Origin: a virus
Reading direction: 5' to 3' (one strand)
DNA: 32,823 nt
IMG/VR virus record: IMGVR_UViG_3300036770_004592
Location: 1 to 32,823 of that record
Each line of letters starts with the position of its first letter. The stretch's first letter is position 1. A program made the position numbers and the translations under genes. The notes beneath the pieces are model-generated. The model saw only the letters and a program-made list of their open reading frames with translations. It ran no database searches and was not told the DNA's origin. This document shows positions 4,953 to 27,165 of this stretch, one piece after another.

Positions 4953-5522
4953 ATGACTGGGATTTATATTATTACCAACAGGCATACATTAAAGAGATAT
5001 GTTGGGCAATCAAAGAATATAGAGACAAGATTAAAATCACATTGGAATTCTCTATTGAAAAACAAACATATAAATCCTTACTTACAAAGTGCCTATAACA
5101 AATATGGTAAGGATGCTTTCATTGAGACTATTGTAGAATGCTCGGAGGTTGAACTTACTGCTATGGAGCAGTATTTTATTGATGTATGGTGGAAAACTGG
5201 TATTCTATACAATATTTGTAGAAAAGCAGAAGTCCCTCCAGCCTCCTGGGGCAGAAAGTATAAACACTCTGAAGAAACTAGAGCTAAGATGAGCGCTGAT
5301 CGCAAGGGCAGAATTCCTTGGAATAAGGGTAAAAAAATGCCTCCAGGTACTGGAGCAAAAGTAAGTGCTAAAAATAAGGGCAGAACTGCTTGGAATAAAA
5401 GTAATGCTTGGGATAGGGTTGATGAGATTAAAAAAGATAGACTTGCTGGATATACCCATTTAATGCTCTGTAAGAAATATAAATGTGGTTCTGAAACTAT
5501 AGGCAAAATCTGCCTCTCATAA
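4953..5522 (+). CDS. GIY-YIG homing endonuclease with NUMOD3 and C-terminal HTH
   Basis: A 189-aa free-standing homing endonuclease of the T4 Seg type. The nuclease domain occupies about 1-90: GIY at 3-5, YVG at 16-18, Arg26, His30, Glu72 (metal-binding Glu, in MEQYFIDVWW), and YNI near 86-88. After it come two NUMOD3-like DNA-binding repeats (about 98-150; SEETRAKMS and GRIPWNKGKK, then GRTAWNK), and a helix-turn-helix-like end (about 150-189). That end resembles the end of the second GIY-YIG protein at 26173-26661. It sits between the capsid operon terminator and the tail genes with its own promoter-like motif. It would cut an allelic site in competitor genomes and spread by repair. Confidence 0.92.
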   Translation: MTGIYIITNRHTLKRYVGQSKNIETRLKSHWNSLLKNKHINPYLQSAYNKYGKDAFIETIVECSEVELTAMEQYFIDVWWKTGILYNICRKAEVPPASWGRKYKHSEETRAKMSADRKGRIPWNKGKKMPPGTGAKVSAKNKGRTAWNKSNAWDRVDEIKKDRLAGYTHLMLCKKYKCGSETIGKICLS

Positions 5523-13751: not shown

Positions 13752-16700
13752 ATGCCTGAGTTTATCACAGAGGAACAATACCTTGCAGTAGAAAACATTA
13801 TTAATAACCCACCCCCTGGTACAACAGACTACTATATGGGGGAGTGGAAGAAGCACCAAAACCGCTATAAAGAGCAACAGTTTAGAGCAGGTATTACTGA
13901 TTTAACTCCTAATAAAACAGCAAAGGCAGGAGCTGATCAGTTTGAAACTGTAAAAAAATATAACGAAATATACAGCAAAGGTATTGAGGGGTATGATGTA
14001 ACAACGGAACCTGATGGTCAATATCTAACTTCTCCAGAAGCAATTGCGCGACGTGTAAATAGAAACTATCTTTCAACCATCTATACAGGTGAGAAAATTG
14101 ATGCATCCAATCATGATTTAGTAAGAACAGACTTTGCCAAAAGGTTTCTTAGCAGAGAAGATATTTTAGATGATGTTACATTTTTTAACGCTGTAAAAGA
14201 TCACGTTGGAAAAACCGTTAAAAATGCTGAGCGTGAGCAAAAGATACAGCAACAAGCTGTTGTAAACTACTATGAAGGTTTATCGCTTAGTGATTCATTA
14301 AAGCAAATACAACAATTCGGGCCTGTTGACGCATCCAATGTAAGAACTATACATCAAAATCTCGATAGTGTAATTAACCCGGTTAAGCCTAAAATTGATA
14401 ATTTATTGTCTGCATTATCTCGTAAAACTAAACCTGAGGTAATGAAGCAGTATGCTACTGAAACTGGCAAAACTGTCGAAGAAATTAAAGCTGAAGATAA
14501 GCTTATTGTTGATGACTTTACAAATACTTTAATTCAAATTCACCCTGATAATCGCAGTAAGATAATGAAAAAGGCTCTTGGTGAAGCTGCGCGTAAGGGT
14601 AAATTAGAACAAGAAGATCCTCAGGGGATTTATAATGAAACTGTAAAGCTTTTTGATGAAGCAGTTAAATCTGCTAAAAATGTATTTGAGGGTTATGATG
14701 CCGCTATGCGAATGGACGCTGAGGTATCGCTTAATAAAATGTCTTTTGCCCCTGGTGATGAATTACGAAGCGCGACGCTAACAGAAATAACTACTCCAGA
14801 GCAAGCTAGACAATATATTATGACTCAGCTTCGCGGTGGTGAAATTGCCCCTGCTGTAGGTCCAGGTGCAAGGCCTTTCATACCCGAGTTAAATAAAATA
14901 CAACTTAACGAAAATTCTACCAAACTACTAAGAGATGCAAAAGCTGAACTTTCTAGCGTTATAGATATAGATAGAAAAATAGGTCAACTAAGTAAAGCTG
15001 TAGATCCGTTCAGAGAAGGGATTCTAACTGATATGGCTACTACTCTCGGTAGCTCTGTTGGTATTATGGGAGTATATGGTCTTGCTGGATTAGCTGGTCC
15101 AATAGGTACTGCTGGTGGCCTATCGTTTGTTGGAACTCTTTATACAGGCCTTAACTATGACGAAATTAGAGAAAAATATCCTGATCTCTCACCTGATAAA
15201 GCGCGTAATGTAGCTGTTGCTTCGGGCGGAGTTGAGGCTCTACTTGATTTGGGTCAGTTTAGCATTATTACAAAAGCGTTTAAATCTCTTGGAGTAAAAG
15301 AAGCAGTAGATCTTGCTGGAAGAGGAGCAGCTAGTAGATTTGGTATTAAAGCAGCTGAAACGACCATTAAAACCTACATATTTGAATTAGGTATCGAGTT
15401 TTTACAAGAGGGAGCTAGACCTATTGTTCAAGAGATATTTGCTCAATATGATAAAGAATATAGCATAAATATTTCGGAGGAATGGGCTGATTGGAAAGAT
15501 GCTGCGCCTCATATAGCTATAGGAATGATTCCTCTTGCCGTTATTGGTGGATTAGGTGCTGGATCGAAGCGTATATTTGCTGATTCAGCACTCAAGAAAT
15601 CTATAATGAAAGAGGGCGAATTAACTGCTTTTGGTCTCTCTCAAGAACAAGTCGTCGAAGTTCAAAATCTTGTCAATAATAATATGTTTGACGCTGCGAG
15701 ATCGCGATTACAAGAACTCAACAAAGATCAAAATGTATTAGAGCGTCGCGGAGACGCATTACAGCGTATCATCGCAGCGCAGGGTATAGAAGAAATTAGA
15801 GCTTTCGATGAAGCTCGTAGAGATGGATTAATTCCAAAATATACAACTAACGAACAAAATAATTATGTTCTTGAAGACGGAACTATATTGCAAGATCAAA
15901 GAGCATATATTGAGTATACTCGATCCAAAATAGAAGAGCTTGAAATAGAATATGCCAATACTACAAAACAGCTCATTGAAGGTGGTAGTGCTGAAGTAGT
16001 TGATATCGATGAATTAAATCGCAGAACTAGCCTTATCGGGAGAGTTAAGGGTCTTACTGTTGATCAACTTAGGTCGTATGATAGTATCTTTGGAACAACA
16101 GCAGTCGAGCAGTCTGATGTTGTAGATCGGCTCATAACATCTATTGTTGACAAAGGACCTGTTGAAGGTATTAAGAGTTATCTCAACGAAATATATGATA
16201 ATATAACTGAGGATGTAAAACTCGCTTTAGGAAAAGATAAAACAGAGGGTATAGAGACTTTGTATAGTATTATCACTGGACAATCTGTGGCTATTAGAGA
16301 TGAGAATGATATGTCTGGTGTGAACGTCGTTATTAAGCCAGCAGATCATATAGTTGATTATGAGGATGTAAGCATAGTAGAAAAAAATAAGGAGGTTGAT
16401 GATACATTCTACCTTGCTGGTCTAAAAGGATTTGATGCTGCGAGAGACAGTCTTGAAAAAAATAGATTACAATCATATAGTGGGTCTGGAGGTCTTAACT
16501 TTGTTAATATTAAAGGGGAACAAACAAGTGTTGGTGGTAAATATGTTCAAACTATAGTTAATACACTCGAGGAGCAGTATAATGTTAGATTTTTCTTTGT
16601 AAAAGGTCAAAAGAATGATCAAGGTAAATATGTTGGAGCGTATGGTATAAGTGTTGATAATGCTATTATTATAGATATTGACCGGGCCAGAGGATCAGTA

Positions 16701-19700
16701 TTAAATCATGTATTAGGTCATGAGTTTGCTCACTACCTCGAAAATACATCTGCTTATAAAGACATGAGCGATGCTATTATTAGATTTAGCCAAAAGCAGT
16801 TTGATGACTATAGAAAGGTTCATGGCGAAAATACGCAAAGAGAGTTTGTTGCTGATATGTTAGGCTCTAACTTTAGAGATATTAACTTTTGGAGCAAGTT
16901 AACCGGTGAAATGTATAAAGCAAATCCTACCACTGCTGATAGTTTTATTGGCACTGTGAAGGCATACCTCGGCGGTATAAAGGAAATGCTTCCTAAGTCA
17001 TTACAAAATCGTGAAATAGATACAGAGAGTATTCAGGATTTTGATAAACTACAAAGTGCTATTATTGCTGGTATGTTGAAAGGTAGAGCTGATCAGTCAC
17101 AGCAAACTGGGGAAGCCAAGTTTATGGAAGCTACTCCAAGCTCTGAAAATCGTTCTGTTGATTATGTATCACGTAAACTCCGTGATCAGATTAATTACGC
17201 TATGTCTCGCATACAAGAAGCAGGTGGATTACCCGTTGGTAAAGAAGCACTACTCGCGCGATTACTTACTCCACAAACAGAGGAGCAGTATACAGATTAT
17301 ATAGAAAATAGAAAATCTTCTATTTTAAGAAGAATAAATGCTGAACGTAAAGCAATAGATAATTTGAATATTGGCAGAACGCTGCGTAATATATCTAATA
17401 ATCTATACACGGCTCTTAAAGATAATACTACAACTTTAAAGCAGATAGCTGAAGCTGAAGCAGCGAAAATTGCTATTGATAAAGATTATACCCCGCTTAC
17501 TCTTGCGCAAATACAAGATATACAAAAAAATCCAGCTAGTAAAACAATGGAGTATATCGAGACATTTAATAAAGCGCGTAACGAATATTTAACTGAAGTT
17601 GTTAATGTCAAAATAAAATATATTTATGACGCTTTAACGGGTCGTATAACACCTGACAGGGAAGATGTAAAAGAATGGGTTAAAACTCTTAGAGATGTAA
17701 TAAAAGAAAGCCCTATTATTAATAATCTATTTAATAATATTGATAATGCTTTGTTTGAAACAGACATTAAAAAAATTAAAAGCGAACTTTCTGAAGTTTA
17801 TAATGAATTATATACAGCAGAAGGAGTGCCTAGAGAGATGAGTGATGAGGCATTTTTAAACGCAATGTTAAAATATAGCGTGTATAAAACATTTGGGGGA
17901 TGGCAAAAAAGGAATATTAATGAAAAAGAAAATGTAATAACACAAGCGTTAAAATTAACAAGTCGAGCATTTCTTGACAACGTACAAGATATTTTTGTTA
18001 ATCCTCAAACAGAGGAGCTTGTAGAAAAAAGTATAAAGGAAATAGTAGAAAATAAAAATACTATAAAAAGAAAGGTCGATAGAAACCCGCTTATTGCTGA
18101 TACTGTTGAAGGTATATTTTCATACCTCGATAATCATATTACCTTTTCTTCTGAACTTGAGTTAATATCTCCTAGTGTTGGTACTCCTGGCAGACCTATT
18201 ACATCTGAATTACAGAAAGTAAATGATATGTTAATAAATGCTTATCTCAATATACAAGATGAGCAAATTGAAACCCAACAAAGCATAACAAGTAAGGTTT
18301 CAAAAATATTCGGAATAACAGAAAAAGAAGCTATAAAAATAATATACGATATACTTACTGCTAAAAATAAAATTAAGGTCACAATAAAAGGTAAGAGTGT
18401 AAAACTTAAAGAAGGCTACGCTGCGTATATTCTTAATATAGAAGATCAGTTAATATACCAAGATCAGTTAAATAGTGCTGGGTTTACAACTGAGGTATTA
18501 AACGATATTAGAAGTCAAATATCCAAAGAGGTTGATGCTTTACGTCGCGAACTAAGAGACGATTTGATTAAAATTGTTAAGCGAAATAATCAAAAACTAA
18601 GAGATATCGGAACTTTTGCTATAGATCCTAGCGAAATATTTTTCCCGGTACAAAAGCAATCACTTATAAGATCTGTTGTTGATAATTTCGATATTGCATA
18701 CGGCAATGGAATTCAGTCTGATGCAGTAGAAAATGAATTAGCAGATAAAAATGAGCTTGAGTTTGATATTGATGAACAAAATATAAACATTATATCAATG
18801 TATAATACTCACGCATATCATGTAATACATAAAGCTAATGTCGCTCAACCTATAAATATATTAAAGAGAATTTTTACATCTAAATCCGTAAGAGATAAAA
18901 TTAATACATATATGGGCAGTGACGGTATTAAGGGTATATTTAAATTTATAAACGCTCTCGAAACAGGTGGTATTACAACTACAGAATTTAATCGCAGTCA
19001 AAAAAGAATAGTAAATCAGATATTATCCGGAACCGCAAGAGCTTCTCTAGGTTTAAATTTAAAGACATATATGGTAAATATGATGTCAGCCGCTAATATT
19101 TTACTCGATACATCTATACCTACTAGTATTAAAATAAAATCAGTTTTCACCGCTTTTTCTGGTATGTATGAATTCGGCTCAAAGAGTGCTCTTGATAAAT
19201 TAATTAGAAGAAGAAAAGATGCTGGAGCAAACGCTTTATTACAAATTATCAAATCAGATACAACTGGTATTTCGCCGGGTAGTAAATTTTACCCAATTAA
19301 ACAATTAAGTGATCGATCTCTTGAATGGATAGGAGAAATTGACGCTAATTTCTTAACATTTTCTGCTATTGCAGCATATAATGCGCATTACGAAATAGGA
19401 AAACTAGAAGGATTGCAAGGCGAAGAGCTTAAGCTTTTCGCGGAAAATGGAATGGTAAGATCAATTACAAAAGTCGCTCAACCTAATATGGCAGCAACTA
19501 AATCTTACCTCGAACAAACTAGTAATCCGTTTTTCAGAACAATTTCAATGTTTATGTCTGAATCTCGTAAAAATTTAGGCATTGAATATACTGTAATGAG
19601 AAAGAATGGTATTTTATCTAGAGAATTTCTAAACATATTCTTATTCAACCACCTTATTATAGGATCCGGTGCTTATGCTCTTCGCGCATTGGGAGGAACA

Positions 19701-20081
19701 ATATTAGGCGAAGAAGATCCTTGGGATATTGAAGAATGGTTAATGTATACCTTATCAGGCCCGCTAAGTGGTATTATATTATTTGGAAGTGCTGCTGATA
19801 GTCTTATAAAGAAAATATATAATGAGCTCGCACCAGGTTTGGGTCTAGACAAAGTAAGGGTTTTTGGCCCATCTGCTCCCGCTCCAATAAGAGTTATTGA
19901 GGATGTAATTAAACTAAAAGATTCTCTTGATAAAGGTGCGAGTTTAAATGAGAGGGCTGATGATATTGCGACAGGTTTAGAATCAATTGGCACTATATTA
20001 AATCAACCAATAATTGGTAGTGCTGGATCTATATTAGATGCTATAACAGATCTTGTTAAGGCGACAGTTGAAAGAGAGTAA
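13752..20081 (+). CDS. Giant internal virion protein (T7 gp16-like) with a zinc metallopeptidase motif
   Basis: A 2109-aa protein, the largest in the genome, in the gp16 slot (T7 gp16 is 1318 aa). Hydrophobic Gly/Ala-rich segments at about 428-467, 586-605 and 1957-2020 could enter the host envelope. In the middle is HEFAH (His990, Glu991, His994), followed 37 residues later by QREFVADMLG with Glu1031 as the probable third zinc ligand, a gluzincin-like arrangement. The region from about 1200 to 1800 is charged and helical. T7 gp16 carries a transglycosylase at its N-terminus; I see none here. The metallopeptidase may cut virion or host proteins during ejection (inference). Start supported by the upstream motif; no Shine-Dalgarno. 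Confidence 0.85.
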   Translation: MPEFITEEQYLAVENIINNPPPGTTDYYMGEWKKHQNRYKEQQFRAGITDLTPNKTAKAGADQFETVKKYNEIYSKGIEGYDVTTEPDGQYLTSPEAIARRVNRNYLSTIYTGEKIDASNHDLVRTDFAKRFLSREDILDDVTFFNAVKDHVGKTVKNAEREQKIQQQAVVNYYEGLSLSDSLKQIQQFGPVDASNVRTIHQNLDSVINPVKPKIDNLLSALSRKTKPEVMKQYATETGKTVEEIKAEDKLIVDDFTNTLIQIHPDNRSKIMKKALGEAARKGKLEQEDPQGIYNETVKLFDEAVKSAKNVFEGYDAAMRMDAEVSLNKMSFAPGDELRSATLTEITTPEQARQYIMTQLRGGEIAPAVGPGARPFIPELNKIQLNENSTKLLRDAKAELSSVIDIDRKIGQLSKAVDPFREGILTDMATTLGSSVGIMGVYGLAGLAGPIGTAGGLSFVGTLYTGLNYDEIREKYPDLSPDKARNVAVASGGVEALLDLGQFSIITKAFKSLGVKEAVDLAGRGAASRFGIKAAETTIKTYIFELGIEFLQEGARPIVQEIFAQYDKEYSINISEEWADWKDAAPHIAIGMIPLAVIGGLGAGSKRIFADSALKKSIMKEGELTAFGLSQEQVVEVQNLVNNNMFDAARSRLQELNKDQNVLERRGDALQRIIAAQGIEEIRAFDEARRDGLIPKYTTNEQNNYVLEDGTILQDQRAYIEYTRSKIEELEIEYANTTKQLIEGGSAEVVDIDELNRRTSLIGRVKGLTVDQLRSYDSIFGTTAVEQSDVVDRLITSIVDKGPVEGIKSYLNEIYDNITEDVKLALGKDKTEGIETLYSIITGQSVAIRDENDMSGVNVVIKPADHIVDYEDVSIVEKNKEVDDTFYLAGLKGFDAARDSLEKNRLQSYSGSGGLNFVNIKGEQTSVGGKYVQTIVNTLEEQYNVRFFFVKGQKNDQGKYVGAYGISVDNAIIIDIDRARGSVLNHVLGHEFAHYLENTSAYKDMSDAIIRFSQKQFDDYRKVHGENTQREFVADMLGSNFRDINFWSKLTGEMYKANPTTADSFIGTVKAYLGGIKEMLPKSLQNREIDTESIQDFDKLQSAIIAGMLKGRADQSQQTGEAKFMEATPSSENRSVDYVSRKLRDQINYAMSRIQEAGGLPVGKEALLARLLTPQTEEQYTDYIENRKSSILRRINAERKAIDNLNIGRTLRNISNNLYTALKDNTTTLKQIAEAEAAKIAIDKDYTPLTLAQIQDIQKNPASKTMEYIETFNKARNEYLTEVVNVKIKYIYDALTGRITPDREDVKEWVKTLRDVIKESPIINNLFNNIDNALFETDIKKIKSELSEVYNELYTAEGVPREMSDEAFLNAMLKYSVYKTFGGWQKRNINEKENVITQALKLTSRAFLDNVQDIFVNPQTEELVEKSIKEIVENKNTIKRKVDRNPLIADTVEGIFSYLDNHITFSSELELISPSVGTPGRPITSELQKVNDMLINAYLNIQDEQIETQQSITSKVSKIFGITEKEAIKIIYDILTAKNKIKVTIKGKSVKLKEGYAAYILNIEDQLIYQDQLNSAGFTTEVLNDIRSQISKEVDALRRELRDDLIKIVKRNNQKLRDIGTFAIDPSEIFFPVQKQSLIRSVVDNFDIAYGNGIQSDAVENELADKNELEFDIDEQNINIISMYNTHAYHVIHKANVAQPINILKRIFTSKSVRDKINTYMGSDGIKGIFKFINALETGGITTTEFNRSQKRIVNQILSGTARASLGLNLKTYMVNMMSAANILLDTSIPTSIKIKSVFTAFSGMYEFGSKSALDKLIRRRKDAGANALLQIIKSDTTGISPGSKFYPIKQLSDRSLEWIGEIDANFLTFSAIAAYNAHYEIGKLEGLQGEELKLFAENGMVRSITKVAQPNMAATKSYLEQTSNPFFRTISMFMSESRKNLGIEYTVMRKNGILSREFLNIFLFNHLIIGSGAYALRALGGTILGEEDPWDIEEWLMYTLSGPLSGIILFGSAADSLIKKIYNELAPGLGLDKVRVFGPSAPAPIRVIEDVIKLKDSLDKGASLNERADDIATGLESIGTILNQPIIGSAGSILDAITDLVKATVERE

Positions 20082-20111: not shown

Positions 20112-20402
20112 ATGACAGAAGCAAAGTTTTTAACTCTTATTACATCTGCTACAGGAACCGCTTGGCAATCTCCTGCGAGTGTTGGTAATATTACAGTTCT
20201 TCACGTAATTAATAATACTGGACAAACTTGGGAATTTAGACGGAGCGGTGACACAGCTGCTGTGTTCCAACTTCCTGATGGTCTTGCTTATTCATTCCGT
20301 GGGTTAAGTAATTCCAATCAACTTCAATTCCGTAGAGCAGATTTATCAAACACTACTCTTACTGCTTATGCTGAGGCAGAACTTGAACACGATATAAGCT
20401 AA
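20112..20402 (+). CDS. Small beta-rich hypothetical protein, possible virion surface protein
   Basis: A 96-aa protein rich in Thr, Ser, Asn and aromatic residues with alternating strands (ITVLHVINNTGQTWEFRR), no signal peptide and no membrane segment. It is first in a tight run of four genes (1-bp gap, then an 8-bp overlap, then a 1-bp overlap) that leads to a glycosyltransferase. Composition and position before the fibre suggest a tail or head surface protein. No family recognised. Confidence 0.7.
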   Translation: MTEAKFLTLITSATGTAWQSPASVGNITVLHVINNTGQTWEFRRSGDTAAVFQLPDGLAYSFRGLSNSNQLQFRRADLSNTTLTAYAEAELEHDIS

Positions 20403-20403
20403 T

Positions 20404-20811
20404 ATGATATCTCGTAAAGCAAGTAGATTCTCTGGCGGGTCTGGAGGCGGGTCAGGAGCAGGTACAATCGAAAGATATTTCGAGCGACTTGTTACTGACC
20501 AAGCGCTTAATACTATTCTATCTGATATGTTTCTCTTTGTTGTTCCAGAAAATGGAACTGTTAAGAGAATTGATGCGGAAGTAGTAACACCAGGATCCTC
20601 AGATGTAACAATTAGTATAAACAAAAATAATACTGTTTTAAAAGATCTAATTAATGTCACTGAAGCAGGTAACGGAACATCTGGCCGATTATATATTTCT
20701 GAATCTGTATCAAGCTCTGTTGTAGCTGGAGATGAAATAAGCGTTACTATCGATAGTGACGGAACTGATGCTGTAGGGTTATATGTAGCAGTATTAATAG
20801 AAGATGAGTAA
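20404..20811 (+). CDS. Gly-rich-anchored beta protein, copy 1 of a related pair
   Basis: A 135-aa protein with a short basic N-terminus, a Gly/Ser linker (GGSGGGSGAG at about 11-20) and a beta-rich domain of about 110 aa (FVVPENGTVKRIDAEVV, then DVTISINKNNTVL). The next protein has the same plan and a recognisable match (xxPxxGxIxxVxx...SxVxIxxxxN), so the two look like diverged tandem duplicates. Such jelly-roll-like modules with a flexible N-terminal linker suit virion decoration or receptor contact (inference). It overlaps the next gene by 8 bp. Confidence 0.75.
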   Translation: MISRKASRFSGGSGGGSGAGTIERYFERLVTDQALNTILSDMFLFVVPENGTVKRIDAEVVTPGSSDVTISINKNNTVLKDLINVTEAGNGTSGRLYISESVSSSVVAGDEISVTIDSDGTDAVGLYVAVLIEDE

Positions 20812-21232
20812 TAAATATCGAAAGCATTATAATATAGGCGGTGGAGGAACTGCTGCTTCTTCTTCATATATAGAAAAAGAATTGTATGGACCTACAGAAG
20901 AAATACAAGGTGAAGAAAAGTTTTGCTTTATTTCACCCGTAAGTGGTCGTATTGCTAACGTTTGTTGCTACGCTGAACCAGCAACCTCTACGGTAAGTAT
21001 AGTTTTTTATAATAATGGTGTTTCATTTGAAACTATCGATATGGAAACTACCGATACTAGTAATTATACAGGTAAGATCTATAAGAGCTCTAATCTTACA
21101 AATGTTGGTACAATTCCTGGTGACGAATTTAAGGTCGTTATTACTCAAACCGGTGAAGATGCGTATGGTCTCGGTAAAGCGAAAGGTCTTGTTGTTGGGT
21201 TTGTATTAGATGAATATATTCCACCTAGTTAA
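20804..21232 (+). CDS. Gly-rich-anchored beta protein, copy 2 of a related pair
   Basis: A 142-aa protein with a basic N-terminus (MSNKYRKHYNI), a GGGGTAASSS linker and a beta domain (CFISPVSGRIANVCC, STVSIVFYNNGVSFETI, then GDEFKVVITQTGEDAYGL). The GDE-x-x-V-x-x-x motif near the end matches GDEISVTI in copy 1. It overlaps copy 1 by 8 bp, and its stop overlaps the glycosyltransferase start by 1 bp, so the three are translationally linked. A virion surface role is inferred. Confidence 0.75.
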   Translation: MSNKYRKHYNIGGGGTAASSSYIEKELYGPTEEIQGEEKFCFISPVSGRIANVCCYAEPATSTVSIVFYNNGVSFETIDMETTDTSNYTGKIYKSSNLTNVGTIPGDEFKVVITQTGEDAYGLGKAKGLVVGFVLDEYIPPS

Positions 21233-22149
21233 TGATTCGAGGTAGACCTATTATAAAGGATAGCTTAAGGAGTAATATTAACACCTCTCCTATTATTGCC
21301 CCATACTTGCGCCAAAACAACTCTACATTATATAATAACACAGTGGAAGATAAAGAATTAATTGTACATCATCTTGAAAATAGAGCATCAAAGAGCAAAA
21401 AAACTTTGATATATTATACTGTTTTTGGTTCAGTTTATAAAGAGATATTCGAATATAGTTTAAAATCAGTAAGATATTTTTATCCAGAAGCAGATATAGT
21501 TTGTATTTCCGATCAAACAGATTTACCGGTAGACACACTATTACAAGCGCCTGTAGATGATTTTATACAAGCCTCAATGAAGAAGCTTGATATATTTTTA
21601 GCATTAGGAAGTAAAATTTATAATTACGATCAGGTGTTGTTTCTTGATGCTGACGTGTTAGCTATTAAACCGTTAAACTTTTTAAACGGTAAAGCTACTA
21701 ATAATAAAATAGAAGTAGTCAAATCAGGTCAATATAGTAATATTAATCCTGAATCGTTTGTAAATCACTTTCACGGTATTAATCTACCGCTTAGTGATAA
21801 ACAAAAGAAAGATATAATAAAAAAGAAAATTATGCCATTTAATGCTGGGCATTTCTTGTTTACTCCAAACAAAGAATTAAAAGACGATTTTGATAATATT
21901 CGATGGCTAAGTAAAATTTGGCCTGGAGATTATTTTTATGAACAAGGGTTCATGAACTACTATTTTGGCATTGTAAAACAGAGTGTATCATATAAAGTTT
22001 TAAATCCTAATGTAGAGTTCTGTTCGCTTAATAAAGGAGAAACCCCAAAAGGCAACCGCGCTCTTATTCATTTTATCGGATCGCAAATTACTCCCGAAGT
22101 TAAACTCAACGCTATGAAAAATGCCTACGAGCGATTTATACAAGGTTAA
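21232..22149 (+). CDS. Glycosyltransferase, GT8/glycogenin-like
   Basis: A 305-aa protein with a GT-A type fold after about 55 extra N-terminal residues. KTLIYYTVFG (57-66) is the first strand, YSLKSVRYFYPEADIVCISD the nucleotide-sugar region, and FLDADVL carries the Asp-x-Asp metal-binding triad at 139-141. FNAGHFLF and the late segment DYFYEQGFMNYYFG fit the acceptor-side motifs of GT8 enzymes. The N-terminal extension could dock it to the neighbouring surface proteins. It starts on the stop of the preceding gene (TAATG) and overlaps the sulfotransferase gene by 29 bp. It could decorate virion proteins or host surface glycans. Donor and acceptor cannot be read from sequence. Confidence 0.83.
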   Translation: MIRGRPIIKDSLRSNINTSPIIAPYLRQNNSTLYNNTVEDKELIVHHLENRASKSKKTLIYYTVFGSVYKEIFEYSLKSVRYFYPEADIVCISDQTDLPVDTLLQAPVDDFIQASMKKLDIFLALGSKIYNYDQVLFLDADVLAIKPLNFLNGKATNNKIEVVKSGQYSNINPESFVNHFHGINLPLSDKQKKDIIKKKIMPFNAGHFLFTPNKELKDDFDNIRWLSKIWPGDYFYEQGFMNYYFGIVKQSVSYKVLNPNVEFCSLNKGETPKGNRALIHFIGSQITPEVKLNAMKNAYERFIQG

Positions 22150-22642
22150 CTTTATACACATTCCTAAAACAGCAGGAACGACTATAGAGAAATATATTGG
22201 AACTGCTACACTCGAAGAGGGATGGCAAAACTGTTATGATTCACCTCAGCATCGATTTGCTTCTGAGTATCCAAAAAATAATTATTTTACCTTTACTGTA
22301 GTTCGTAATCCATATGATAGAATAATATCTGAATATCATTGGAGAAACGTAGACGAAGATGTAAACGATTTTGTTGAAAGAGCTATATATACAGCAGATA
22401 ATCCAGAGTGGGATAGACATATATTACCACAATCAAATTTTGTTGATGTAGATGGGGTTAAAGTATTTAAATATGAGAACATCAACGCGCTGTTTACTAT
22501 TTTAACGGGACTTATAAGCTATCCCATTCCCCGCGCTACTCCTAAAATATATGAGAAGTATATTTTAAACACAAGCAGTGTTGAGCTTATTAATGAGTTT
22601 TATAATGAAGACTTTAAACGGTTCTCGTATAATAAACTCTAA
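22121..22642 (+). CDS. Sulfotransferase (PAPS-dependent, Sulfotransfer_2-like)
   Basis: A 173-aa compact sulfotransferase. FIHIPKTAGTT (11-21) is the 5'-phosphosulfate-binding loop, and VVRNPYDRIISEYHW (60-74, Arg62 and Ser70) is the 3'-phosphate-binding motif. FVDVDGVKVFKYENI and the C-terminal ELINEFYNEDFKRFSY are usual for this family. It is shorter than most relatives (about 200-250 aa), mainly in the middle. It overlaps the glycosyltransferase by 29 bp, so a sugar is probably added and then sulfated, or both enzymes act on one polymer. The start at 22121 gives residues before the IPKTAGTT loop as in relatives; no better start is visible. Confidence 0.9.
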   Translation: MPTSDLYKVNFIHIPKTAGTTIEKYIGTATLEEGWQNCYDSPQHRFASEYPKNNYFTFTVVRNPYDRIISEYHWRNVDEDVNDFVERAIYTADNPEWDRHILPQSNFVDVDGVKVFKYENINALFTILTGLISYPIPRATPKIYEKYILNTSSVELINEFYNEDFKRFSYNKL

Positions 22643-22662: not shown

Positions 22663-24911
22663 ATGTCAATAAACTGGAAATTCGCAAACTTTCAAAGTGT
22701 CCCCAATACCGCTATTGAAGGTCTAAGCTCTGTCAATCAGGGACAACTTTTGGCCAACAAATCAATGGAGATGTTATTACTGTTGACCTTGGATTAGAAA
22801 CAACTGATTCTCCAGTCTTTGAAAACCTTACACTTAATGGCAACCTCACCGCTAAAGGTAATCTTACATATCTTGATACCAATGTCTCGGTTACGAGTGC
22901 GATGGAAATCGAAAATGCTGGAACAGGTCCCGCTCTTATTGTAAATCAAACAGGAACAGAACCCATAGTAGATTTTAGAGATGATGGGCAATCTGCTTTT
23001 TTTATTGCTGATGGAGGCAATGTTGGTATTGGAACAACAACACCAGATAAAGAATTAGTAGTAAACGGGAATGCTTCACTTAATGGATACTTATCTGCTG
23101 ACTCTGTTAAATTTAATATTGGAGCAGGTATATTAGATCCGGATCAAGGCGAATTATCCTGGGACGAAGACGATCAGACCTTACATTTTGGAATGAACGG
23201 AGTTACCTCCCGTATATCCCAGAATGAATTTATAAGAATTAAAGCAGACGTAACAATAAAAAAAGGTCAAGCAGTAAGAGCAACAGGCGCGTCTGGAGAC
23301 GGTTCTGGTAATATTACTGGTGCTTTATACAGTGCGAGTAGTGCGAGTGGTATAGATGAAATATATTTTATTGGCGTAGCAGCTGAAGACATGGGGCCTA
23401 ACGATTTCGGATTTGTATCCACTTTTGGTAAAGTAAAAGAAGTAGAAGTATCAGATACAAGAGGTAGTGATGACCCAGAATATGGATTAACTGCTCAAAA
23501 TGGTTGGGCTATTGGAACCATCTTATATGTATCTACGACAGAGCCTGGTAAGTATACCCAAACTCAACCATTGGCGCCTAATAGAGATATACCTTGTGTA
23601 ATTATTGTATCTACTAACGGAACAAAGAGAGGCTTCTTTGTAAGATATGAGCATGGATATAGTCTCAATGACATTCACGATGTAAGATATGACTTACCAT
23701 TAGTTGATGGCGACTTACTTACTTGGAATAATAATATTAGTGCTTGGACAAATAAATCTGAAACAGATCCAATATTCTCTACCTGGGCGCAAGCTAATAG
23801 CGCTAATTACGACTCAGTTTATACCACTGTTAACACAAATAGCGCTGGATGGGACGGAGGCACATTAAACTATCAAAGATGGTTTTTCACCGGAGATGGA
23901 ACTAATGATACGTTTAATATAGCGGGAATGGTGGAAAATGATGAAGAGGGTTATAGGGTTTATGTTAATAACGTCGTAGTAGATCCTAATGAATACCAGA
24001 TTATTCCTGCTACAAATTCTATCGCATTTGATACAACCCCTATAAGCGGTGCTGAAATACTTATTATTGGTCAATATGCTTCTCAGATTATTACATTATC
24101 AGCAACAGGAGATTTTGTTGAAGATTTTGGATATACACAAGCAGGATCATTAACAGGAACAAGACCATCAGGTTCATTTACAAGAACAAATCCTAAACTT
24201 GATTCTATATATACTACAACTAATATAAACAGTGCGAGTTGGAATGCTGCTTATACTAGTACAAATAGCAATAGTGCTAAATGGGAGTCTGTCTATACTA
24301 CAACTAACACAAATAGCGCCACTAATTGGAACAATACAGAAGGTAAGTCAGCTTATACCACTACGCAAAGTAATAGTGCGAGTTGGAATCAATTCTGCCC
24401 TACAGGTTCAGTATTAACTTATGCTGGCTCTGCTGCTCCTAACGGGTGGTTATTATGTGATGGCTCGGCTGTATCGAGATCAACATATGCTGGTCTATTT
24501 GCCGTAGTAGGGTCCATCTATGGTAATGGTGATGGGTCTACAACATTCAACCTTCCCGATCTTCGCGGTCGTGTTGCTGCGGGTAAAGATGATATGGATA
24601 ATTCGGTTGGCACAGGTGGAGGTACTGCTGGTAGATTAACAAACAGCGGAACCGGAAATTCTGGTATCGATGGAACCTTGCTTGGAGCTGCTAGCGGGTC
24701 TGACAGGCATACTCTCACGATCAACCAGATGCCCGCTCACACTCACGACCAATGGGATCCTGCTGCATTTGCCGCGTCGAGTGTTGTAGCTGGAGGTTCG
24801 CGGCGAGAAATTGCTGCTACTTCAAATACCGATACCGGTAGTACAGGCGGAGGTGCAGCGCATCCGATTGTTCAGCCAACTATTGTTCTTAATATGATAA
24901 TTCGCACGTAA
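22663..24911 (+). CDS. Tail fibre with C-terminal collar domain; reading frame broken near 22740
   Basis: The gene starts at ATG 22663 behind a GACTAAATA motif, but that frame stops at TAG 22792-22794. The protein continues in the -1 frame: NQG is followed by TTFGQQINGDVITVDLG from 22743. Adding one G to the GGG at 22740-22742 would restore a 749-aa protein. Parts in order: N-terminal tail-binding piece, beta-rich shaft with NVGIGTTTP (a common fibre motif), a central domain with KKGQAVRATG, repeats of the type YTTTNxNSAxW, and a collar domain (CPTGSVLTYAG, GWLLCDGSAVSR, FNLPDLRGRVAAG, MPAHTHDQW). The long remaining ORF starts at 22902 if the break is real. It probably recognises the host receptor. 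Confidence 0.82.
23792..24396 (+). repeat. Coding repeats of the fibre shaft, YTTTNxNSAxW type
   Basis: One copy lies near 23792-23851 (DSVYTTVNTNSAGW) and a run of about four or five imperfect copies lies at 24201-24396 (IYTTTNINSASW, AYTSTNSNSAKW, VYTTTNTNSAT, AYTTTQSNSASW). Units are 11-14 aa and could be recombined or change in number. Similar repeats are common in marine phage fibres (recollection, not a search). Confidence 0.85.
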
Positions 24912-26172: not shown

Positions 26173-26661
26173 TCATCTATTGGTAGCTTCCAGGATCCTC
26201 CAAACTGTTGTATATGATGCATTAAGTCGTGCTGCAATTTCTTTGAGCTTAAGGCCTTCTTCATATCGCAAACGGCGAATTTCCGATATTCTTTCCCATG
26301 CATCAGAAGATCTTTCCGAAATCCTTTTCCTGTCAGTGTAGTAGACGTTATAGACATTATAATCTGTATTTATGTCAATAGTGACTTTTTCGACGGAACT
26401 TAGGTATTCTTTCATAACAGGCCAATATGTAATGGTAAATTTATTTATTCCGTGCTTTTTATAATCGGAGAGCATTTCCTTAGGAAATTTAACTCCCCGT
26501 CTTAAGCAGGACTTGCTATACATAATGCGCGTATAAAGTTCTTTCGAACTTCCAACATAAACTCTACCATTTTTATTATTTTTAATAATGTAAACAGCCG
26601 AGATTTTCGGTAAAGTCTTATAGTTTACCGCTGACAAGGGGATTGTAGTTGTGTTATTCAT
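26173..26661 (-). CDS. GIY-YIG family homing endonuclease with C-terminal HTH
   Basis: A 162-aa leftward gene. The nuclease core is at about 19-105: AVYIIKN (22-28, in place of GIY), YVG at 35-37, Arg45, then a helix and the segment DYKKHGINKFTITYW. The expected catalytic Glu is probably Glu84 in YLSSVEKVTIDINTDYNVYN, with the Asn of the family at NVYN. Residues about 118-162 are a helix-turn-helix of the type EGLKLKEIAARLNASYTTVW. This end resembles that of the endonuclease at 4953-5522 (AWxRxxEIxxxR...), so the two share a DNA-binding module. The start has a CTAAATA motif upstream on the same strand. Confidence 0.88.
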   Translation of the reverse strand: MNNTTTIPLSAVNYKTLPKISAVYIIKNNKNGRVYVGSSKELYTRIMYSKSCLRRGVKFPKEMLSDYKKHGINKFTITYWPVMKEYLSSVEKVTIDINTDYNVYNVYYTDRKRISERSSDAWERISEIRRLRYEEGLKLKEIAARLNASYTTVWRILEATNR

Positions 26662-26736: not shown

Positions 26737-27165
26737 ATGTTACAACACCCTGCTACGATTTTACTTTACGGGAATATAGATGAAAGGATGTCTTTATTTT
26801 TTCTAAAAGAGATGAGACGCTTACATTTACACAAAAATGTATTGGTTAGGATTAACAGCTATGGAGGTGATTTGCTATGTGCACTTAGTATTATTAATGT
26901 TATGAAACAGCACAGAGGCCACGTTATAACGCTAGTTGATGGATTTGCTGCGAGCTCAGCATCTTTGATAGCAGCGTCTGCGCAAGTGAGATTTATGCAC
27001 AAGACCTCTTTTCAGCTAGCACATAAAGTAGTCAACGACTGCCCTGCAAATGGGCCAATCTTTAATAGCGTTATAAAAAGCATTTATAAAGAGGACATCC
27101 CAGAAGATAGATGGCTTACTGCTAGTGAATGTTTTGAGTATAGGATATGTGATAAAATCATCTAA
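26737..27165 (+). CDS. ClpP-like serine protease
   Basis: A 142-aa protein with the crotonase/ClpP fold signature: LYGNIDE at 10-16, VRINSYGGDLLCAL at 37-50 (ClpP has INSPGG), GFAASSASLIAAS at 69-81 with Ser73 aligned to the nucleophile of GxAASMG, and FQLAHKV at 92-98 with His96 aligned to the catalytic His. The C-terminus EDRWLTASECFEYRICDK matches the ClpP end that holds the catalytic Asp. It is shorter than ClpP (about 195 aa), with trimmed N- and C-termini. It could be the head maturation protease, since no other prohead protease is visible, although T7-like phages need none; or it could replace or hijack host ClpP (inference). Confidence 0.87.
   Translation: MLQHPATILLYGNIDERMSLFFLKEMRRLHLHKNVLVRINSYGGDLLCALSIINVMKQHRGHVITLVDGFAASSASLIAASAQVRFMHKTSFQLAHKVVNDCPANGPIFNSVIKSIYKEDIPEDRWLTASECFEYRICDKII

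Follow-up and report, generated by a model that had tools for sequence, protein, structure and literature searches.

The podovirus studied here is represented by an uncultured virus contig of 32,823 bases, the whole of which we refer to as the window. Profile matches identify its portal protein (PF12236, 3e-102) and major capsid protein (PF19821, 4e-60), and its nearest isolates are pelagiphages of the HTVC028P/HTVC010P type, with 39% identity to the capsid protein and 31% to the portal protein of HTVC028P. The segment of interest contains the following genes in this order, and all open reading frames of the cassette region lie on the plus strand:

13752-20081: 2109-residue protein, taken to be an internal virion protein by its position and homology
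20112-20402, plus strand: 96-residue protein matching phrog_19032 (9e-8), which forms the constant left edge of the variable segment
20404-20811, plus strand: 135-residue protein with a Ser/Gly linker (SGGSGGGSGAGT), a candidate virion component and candidate acceptor
20804-21232, plus strand: 142-residue paralogue of the 135-residue protein, likewise a candidate virion component and candidate acceptor
21232-22149, plus strand: GT8-like GT-A glycosyltransferase of 305 residues, with a DxD motif at residues 139-141
22121-22642, plus strand: predicted PAPS-type sulfotransferase of 173 residues (Sulfotransfer_2 and phrog_3347)
22902-24911, plus strand: tail fibre of 669 residues with a Phage Tail Collar domain, the next downstream structural gene and an alternative candidate acceptor

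Annotation of the open reading frames with Pfam and PHROGs places the glycosyltransferase gene within the structural module. The genes for the 135- and 142-residue proteins overlap by 8 bp, those for the 142-residue protein and the glycosyltransferase by 1 bp (TAATG), and those for the glycosyltransferase and the sulfotransferase by 29 bp. A first-pass annotation had given these three overlaps and had placed the enzyme pair at 21232-22642, in exact agreement with our open reading frame calls, and the motifs it had named (DAD at residues 139-141, IPKTAGTT, and VRNPYDR) are all present, the first within FLDADVL and the second within FIHIPKTAGTT. It had also described the two small proteins as a linker-plus-beta-domain pair; their relationship as paralogues holds (26% identity, E 7e-9), whereas the domain type is a reading of the sequence, as neither protein has a family match in Pfam or PHROGs. 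One codon separates the ATG of the sulfotransferase frame from the stop before it, and its first 30 codons contain no further ATG, GTG, or TTG; the start is thus unambiguous and the 29-bp overlap independent of start choice. A scan for promoters and terminators found sites no more numerous than in shuffled sequences.

The window has further features outside the enzyme pair. The 2109-residue protein contains an HExxH motif (GHEFAHYLE), which by reading suggests an embedded metalloprotease, and a free-standing GIY-YIG/NUMOD3 homing endonuclease lies at 4953-5522, between capsid and tail genes. By reading, the gene at 26173-26661 on the minus strand looks like a second GIY-YIG-type endonuclease, overlapping an open reading frame of 210 residues, and the one at 26737-27165 looks like a ClpP-type protease (SYGG, GFAASSAS). 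Residues ~498-620 of the collar fibre share 61-63% identity with fibres of unrelated Pseudomonas, Serratia, Escherichia, and Acinetobacter phages and the remainder is not alike, a pattern that looks as though the collar domain had been exchanged.

From its sequence, the second enzyme of the pair is predicted to be a PAPS-type sulfotransferase. It is a good member of the Pfam family Sulfotransfer_2 (PF03567; 46.6 bits at a cut-off of 22, E 6.4e-12) and matches phrog_3347, labelled 'galactose-3-O-sulfotransferase', with an E-value of 4.9e-19 across profile positions 9-216 of 219. Both phosphosulfate motifs are present, IPKTAGTT with K16 and VRNPYDR..S with R62 and S70, which we take to be the 5'- and 3'-phosphosulfate binding motifs, respectively. 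At 173 residues the enzyme is the shortest of the 30 sulfotransferases from cassettes of this type (173-241 residues), and it is about 30% identical to the sulfotransferases of phage ACG-2014f. Its structure model (pLDDT 87, pTM 0.84) aligns with PAPS sulfotransferases, namely SULT1C3 and heparan 6-O-sulfotransferase (Z 9.4, rmsd 3.5, 149 and 152 residues); Foldseek matches were weak (best 3.8e-3), and a sequence search of the PDB gave chance-level matches only. On alignment with VIA, SULTs, heparan 6-O-sulfotransferases, and tyrosylprotein sulfotransferases rank within about one Z unit of each other (Z 9.4 to 8.3). Because the fold ties enzymes of the small-molecule, heparan, and tyrosylprotein types, the acceptor class is not readable from it.

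The glycosyltransferase scores below the cut-off of the Pfam family Glyco_transf_8 (PF01501; 14.8 bits versus 24.3, E 0.021), and we therefore call it GT8-like only; its homologues in loci L018 and L009 exceed the cut-off with 34.4 and 26.1 bits. The structure model, built from six sequences (pLDDT 73), has a predicted GT-A fold. Foldseek placed glycogenin-1 first (2.4e-9), and after realignment with VIA the GT6 enzymes lead, with BoGT6a (4cjc) at Z 17.5, 3.2 A rmsd, and 211 aligned residues. Identity to the top structural matches is 11-13%, and a sequence search of the PDB returned no matches. Membrane segments are absent from both enzymes of the window, the highest 19-residue hydropathy being 1.12 in the glycosyltransferase and 1.09 in the sulfotransferase. 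None of 50,697 isolate phage records matched four queries from the glycosyltransferase family (tblastn). Across a collection of 84,980 species' genomes, a first scan found nothing and a second found only two partial matches of 25-26% identity in Clostridia MAGs, both being short-pattern scans that distant relatives can escape.

As single queries on viral contigs, the glycosyltransferase, the sulfotransferase, and the 2109-residue protein of the window gave no confirmed relative, so that alignment queries were needed. From a search of viral contigs with a sulfotransferase alignment we kept the best 80 of 109 relatives, and among their neighbours, homologues of the window's glycosyltransferase lie directly upstream of the sulfotransferase and overlap it in L009, L018, L019, and L034. 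Searches of uncultured viral contigs with the glycosyltransferase alone gave 48 loci with a first alignment, made from these homologues and the window's enzyme, and 56 with a broader one, together 101 loci, of which 99 have an open reading frame for the enzyme and 41 are non-redundant at 85% identity. A sulfotransferase is the next gene on the same strand in 29 of these 41 loci; the order is reversed in one, a sulfotransferase lies elsewhere in the stretch in two, and none is present in the stretch examined in nine. The paired genes overlap in 22 of the 29 cases, by 4 to 56 bp. Since one glycosyltransferase query (A4) was seeded from neighbours of sulfotransferases and another (A8) from pairs, the proportion of 29/41 is too high as an estimate for GT8-like phage genes in general. 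This seeding bias leaves unexplained the contrast within the loci, where sulfotransferases account for 29 of the 43 glycosyltransferase-adjacent genes but for only 3 of the 452 other genes.

Variants of this arrangement occur as well. At 3059-6916 of L009 (L098 is the same contig), genes for a GT2-like enzyme, the GT8-like enzyme, the sulfotransferase, and another GT8-like paralogue precede a tail-sheath-like gene and make up a four-enzyme version of the cassette. Tandem or multiple sulfotransferase copies are found in L020, L025, L026, L032, L069, and L085, which fall outside the GT8-like cassette type. The glycosyltransferase family also has members without a sulfotransferase (L118, L120, L123, and L183), and by reading three of them (L118, L120, and L183) adjoin collagen-like or fibre-like proteins, which suggests that glycosylation without sulfation may also take place at adhesin loci.

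We compared the residues of both enzymes in 25 pairs, the window's own and those of 24 further cassettes. In the glycosyltransferases, D139 and D141 of the DxD motif are kept in all 25, as are N204, A205, G206, W230, E237, Q238, Y244, H280, and K291; in the sulfotransferases the same applies to K16, R62, P64, S70, and Y170. Loss of catalytic residues in relatives, which the first-pass annotation had named as an outcome that would speak against its reading, was thus seen in none of the 25 pairs, yet the phosphosulfate loops are altered in the four most distant partner sulfotransferases (L127, L130, L132, and L189), and not every partner need therefore be an active sulfotransferase. The identity matrices of the two enzymes correlate with a Mantel rho of 0.55, a value reached by 0 of 2000 permutations.

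Reading of 24 cassettes showed that the gene directly upstream of the pair often encodes an adhesin-type protein, and that these are of unrelated kinds (glycine-rich, YadA/Hep_Hag-like, or with Thr/Ser/Tyr repeats); other upstream genes resemble LamG-type or other fibres. A rule built on these three adhesin classes, which were set after the neighbours had been viewed and leave 13 of 29 cassettes unclassed, picks out 16 of 29 cassettes and 2 of 53 other phage sulfotransferase loci (Fisher 1.6e-7). The families listed for 62 upstream proteins include central tail fibre J, tail fibre, fibre assembly, tail sheath, baseplate wedge, BppL_N, BclA_C, and Gly-rich domains, and those listed for 43 downstream proteins include head-tail adaptor, sheath, and head closure. 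These tallies name families rather than loci, list up to 25 families each, and cover same-strand proteins of 100-900 residues (sets A2/A3) or proteins of at least 90 residues (A6/A7); one tail sheath protein (L098:8748-11759) was added to the downstream set by hand and raises the sheath count by one. Some downstream neighbours carry the PHROGs labels 'kinase' or 'polynucleotide kinase'. In 22 cases the upstream gene shares the strand of the pair, and in 15 of these the gap is no more than 12 bp. L117 is an exception, in that its surrounding genes do not look structural. The glycosyltransferase-sulfotransferase pair is a cassette of two genes that recurs among uncultured phages and is tied to tail adhesin loci.

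Two of the cassettes, in L116 (same contig as L018) and L088, belong to relatives of the window phage, with 27-30% identity in the large protein and 63% (L116) or 39% (L088) in the 96-residue protein. The 135- and 142-residue proteins of the window have no match in either at an E-value of 1e-4, and both relatives carry the glycosyltransferase and sulfotransferase after different proteins of their own. Across these three related podoviruses, the presumed adhesin segment varies while the enzyme pair persists, as expected if the enzymes serve whichever adhesin is present, although this does not by itself prove the substrate. Tail loci are frequent landing sites for accessory genes, so that position alone is likewise no proof.

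We give roughly even chances to the interpretation that the two genes form a cassette for decorating the virion, in which tail adhesins first receive a sugar and then sulfate. Presumably late in infection, the soluble, cytoplasmic GT8-like enzyme would take a sugar from a nucleotide-sugar donor and attach it to a tail adhesin or fibre subunit encoded by the adjacent genes. The sulfotransferase from the overlapping gene would then transfer sulfate from host PAPS to that sugar, and the host-binding appendage of the phage would come to bear a sulfated glycan. The sequential action, the virion-protein acceptor, and its identity are what we infer here, along with a benefit that might lie in charge, stability, masking, or receptor use. 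The best acceptor candidates in the window are probably the 135- and 142-residue proteins, which we favour on account of their coupling to the glycosyltransferase by gene overlaps and their Ser/Gly-rich stretches, with the collar fibre next.

Sulfation would depend on a supply of PAPS. A search with PF01583 found no APS kinase in the window, and PAPS would therefore have to come from the host. The nearest isolate relatives infect SAR11 bacteria, which to our knowledge do not have genes for sulfate assimilation; the sulfation model would meet a difficulty if the host of the window phage were SAR11. Elsewhere, a gene of the APS kinase family lies within three genes of the glycosyltransferase in L089, L105, L117, L162, and L174, and directly after the sulfotransferase in L089 and L105; the five loci were selected with a P-loop pattern, and PF01583 matches four of them. 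We rejected an enrichment of APS kinase at the level of whole records as support, because matches above the PF01583 cut-off are no commoner in cassette records (7 of 29) than in other sulfotransferase records (11 of 52), and used only the proximity in the five loci.

The first-pass annotation had proposed that the pair acts either on virion proteins or on host surface sugars, in the latter case to block rival phages. The former is favoured by the recurrence of the pair, its adjacency to adhesins, the persistence of the pair while its neighbours change, and the way it is coupled to two small genes of structural type; none of the evidence speaks specifically for the exclusion of rival phages. 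The main rival, which we consider rather unlikely though worth weighing, is that LPS, capsule, exopolysaccharide, or another glycan of the host surface is modified, for instance against re-adsorption or superinfection, with the tail side serving as a convenient, late-expressed site. Epimerases, methyltransferases, and glycosyltransferases do accompany related phage sulfotransferases in larger glycan-synthesis clusters, including those of ACG-2014f and Mosig, and the sulfotransferase of LR756500 is, by reading, clustered with KDO synthesis-type genes, a context equally in keeping with host or extracellular polysaccharides. Most cassettes, however, consist of the pair only and lack the sugar-nucleotide genes of those clusters, the window's glycosyltransferase has no membrane segment, and both the repeated direct adjacency to different adhesins and the overlap with structural-type genes argue against it.

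We give little credence to the idea that the two enzymes modify virion proteins independently of each other, the glycosyltransferase attaching a sugar and the sulfotransferase directly sulfating tyrosine or another site. It is compatible with a sulfotransferase fold that leaves the acceptor class open and with the family's glycosyltransferases that occur without a sulfotransferase. The best family matches of the sulfotransferase are nevertheless of the carbohydrate type (Sulfotransfer_2 and the 'galactose-3-O-sulfotransferase' phrog_3347), and the pairing of the two genes is tight and ordered.

A chance union of two unrelated accessory genes without joint function is very improbable. The low GC content of both genes (0.31 and 0.33) is compatible with a recent gain, and in a free tree the window's sulfotransferase falls outside the clade that unites 19 of the 30 cassette sulfotransferases (SH-aLRT 93). 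The AU test, however, rejects neither a single clade of all 30 (p-AU 0.644) nor one of the main 19 plus the window's (p 0.863). The window's sulfotransferase also carries the motif D-x-H-x-x-x-Q-x-x-[FY], which is present in 19 of the 30 cassette sulfotransferases and in 2 of 53 other phage sulfotransferases, and the pair recurs in 29 of 41 loci as described above. Several independent origins of the pairing with different sulfotransferases had been considered and were dropped as a claim, as the AU test does not reject one clade.

Least probable of all is a target in phage DNA or a small molecule: DNA-modifying phage glycosyltransferases exist (as noted in PMC12619734), but the pair lies in the structural module and the neighbour families listed include no base-modification genes.

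Decoration of the virion's own adhesins could extend well beyond the window. Tentatively, and with somewhat less than even confidence, we propose a widespread two-gene system of uncultured tailed phages that places a sulfated glycan on the phage's own tail adhesins, in which the GT8-like enzyme persists as adhesins are swapped, accompanied by an overlapping sulfotransferase gene and sometimes by a gene of the APS kinase family whose product could provide the sulfate donor. The occurrence of the cassette at adhesin loci gives the repeatedly reported phage sulfotransferases a concrete possible role, the chemical decoration of the host-binding part. If this is true, sulfation would join the known modifications of phage particles and would matter for the charge of environmental phages and for how they bind their hosts; the small, soluble enzyme pair might also be used for making sulfated glycoproteins. 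In our searches of the open-access literature, none of the entries returned described the glycosyltransferase-sulfotransferase pair or sulfated phage particles. We know of no sulfated phage particle reported before, and this one, if confirmed, would be the first.

Phage virion glycosylation is the known kind of system to which the cassette would belong, and the pairing of a glycosyltransferase with a sulfotransferase at adhesin loci would be its novel part. The gtr clusters of temperate phages, which encode membrane glucosyltransferases and a flippase and modify the host LPS O-antigen, also represent phage-encoded glycosylation, but their glycosyltransferases are membrane proteins, unlike the window's enzyme with its lack of a membrane segment. 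Glycogenin and other GT8 enzymes, GT6 enzymes, and LARGE1 share the predicted GT-A fold and the DxD motif with the window's glycosyltransferase, at the low identity to the top matches given above. Phage sulfotransferases are known as auxiliary metabolic genes, among others from contigs of OM43 phages, with a function called unclear (PMC10580990). Those of phrog_3347, OM43 phages, ACG-2014f, and Mosig are of the same P-loop type as the window's. They differ in context: in ACG-2014f and Mosig the gene is part of a glycan-synthesis cluster, which in ACG-2014f lies a short way ahead of a gene for a tail fibre, and no isolate record has the GT8-like partner (tblastn with four queries). A close parallel is the glycosylation of mycobacteriophage virions, in which glycans are reported on the C-termini of capsid and tail tube subunits (Freeman et al., 2023, Cell Host Microbe, as described in PMC12619734; also cited in PMC10877033 and PMC12691614). 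There phage glycans are described on virion proteins, as is proposed here; the passages considered on the mycobacteriophage system mention no sulfotransferase, and the glycosyltransferase described here is paired with one beside the tail adhesins.
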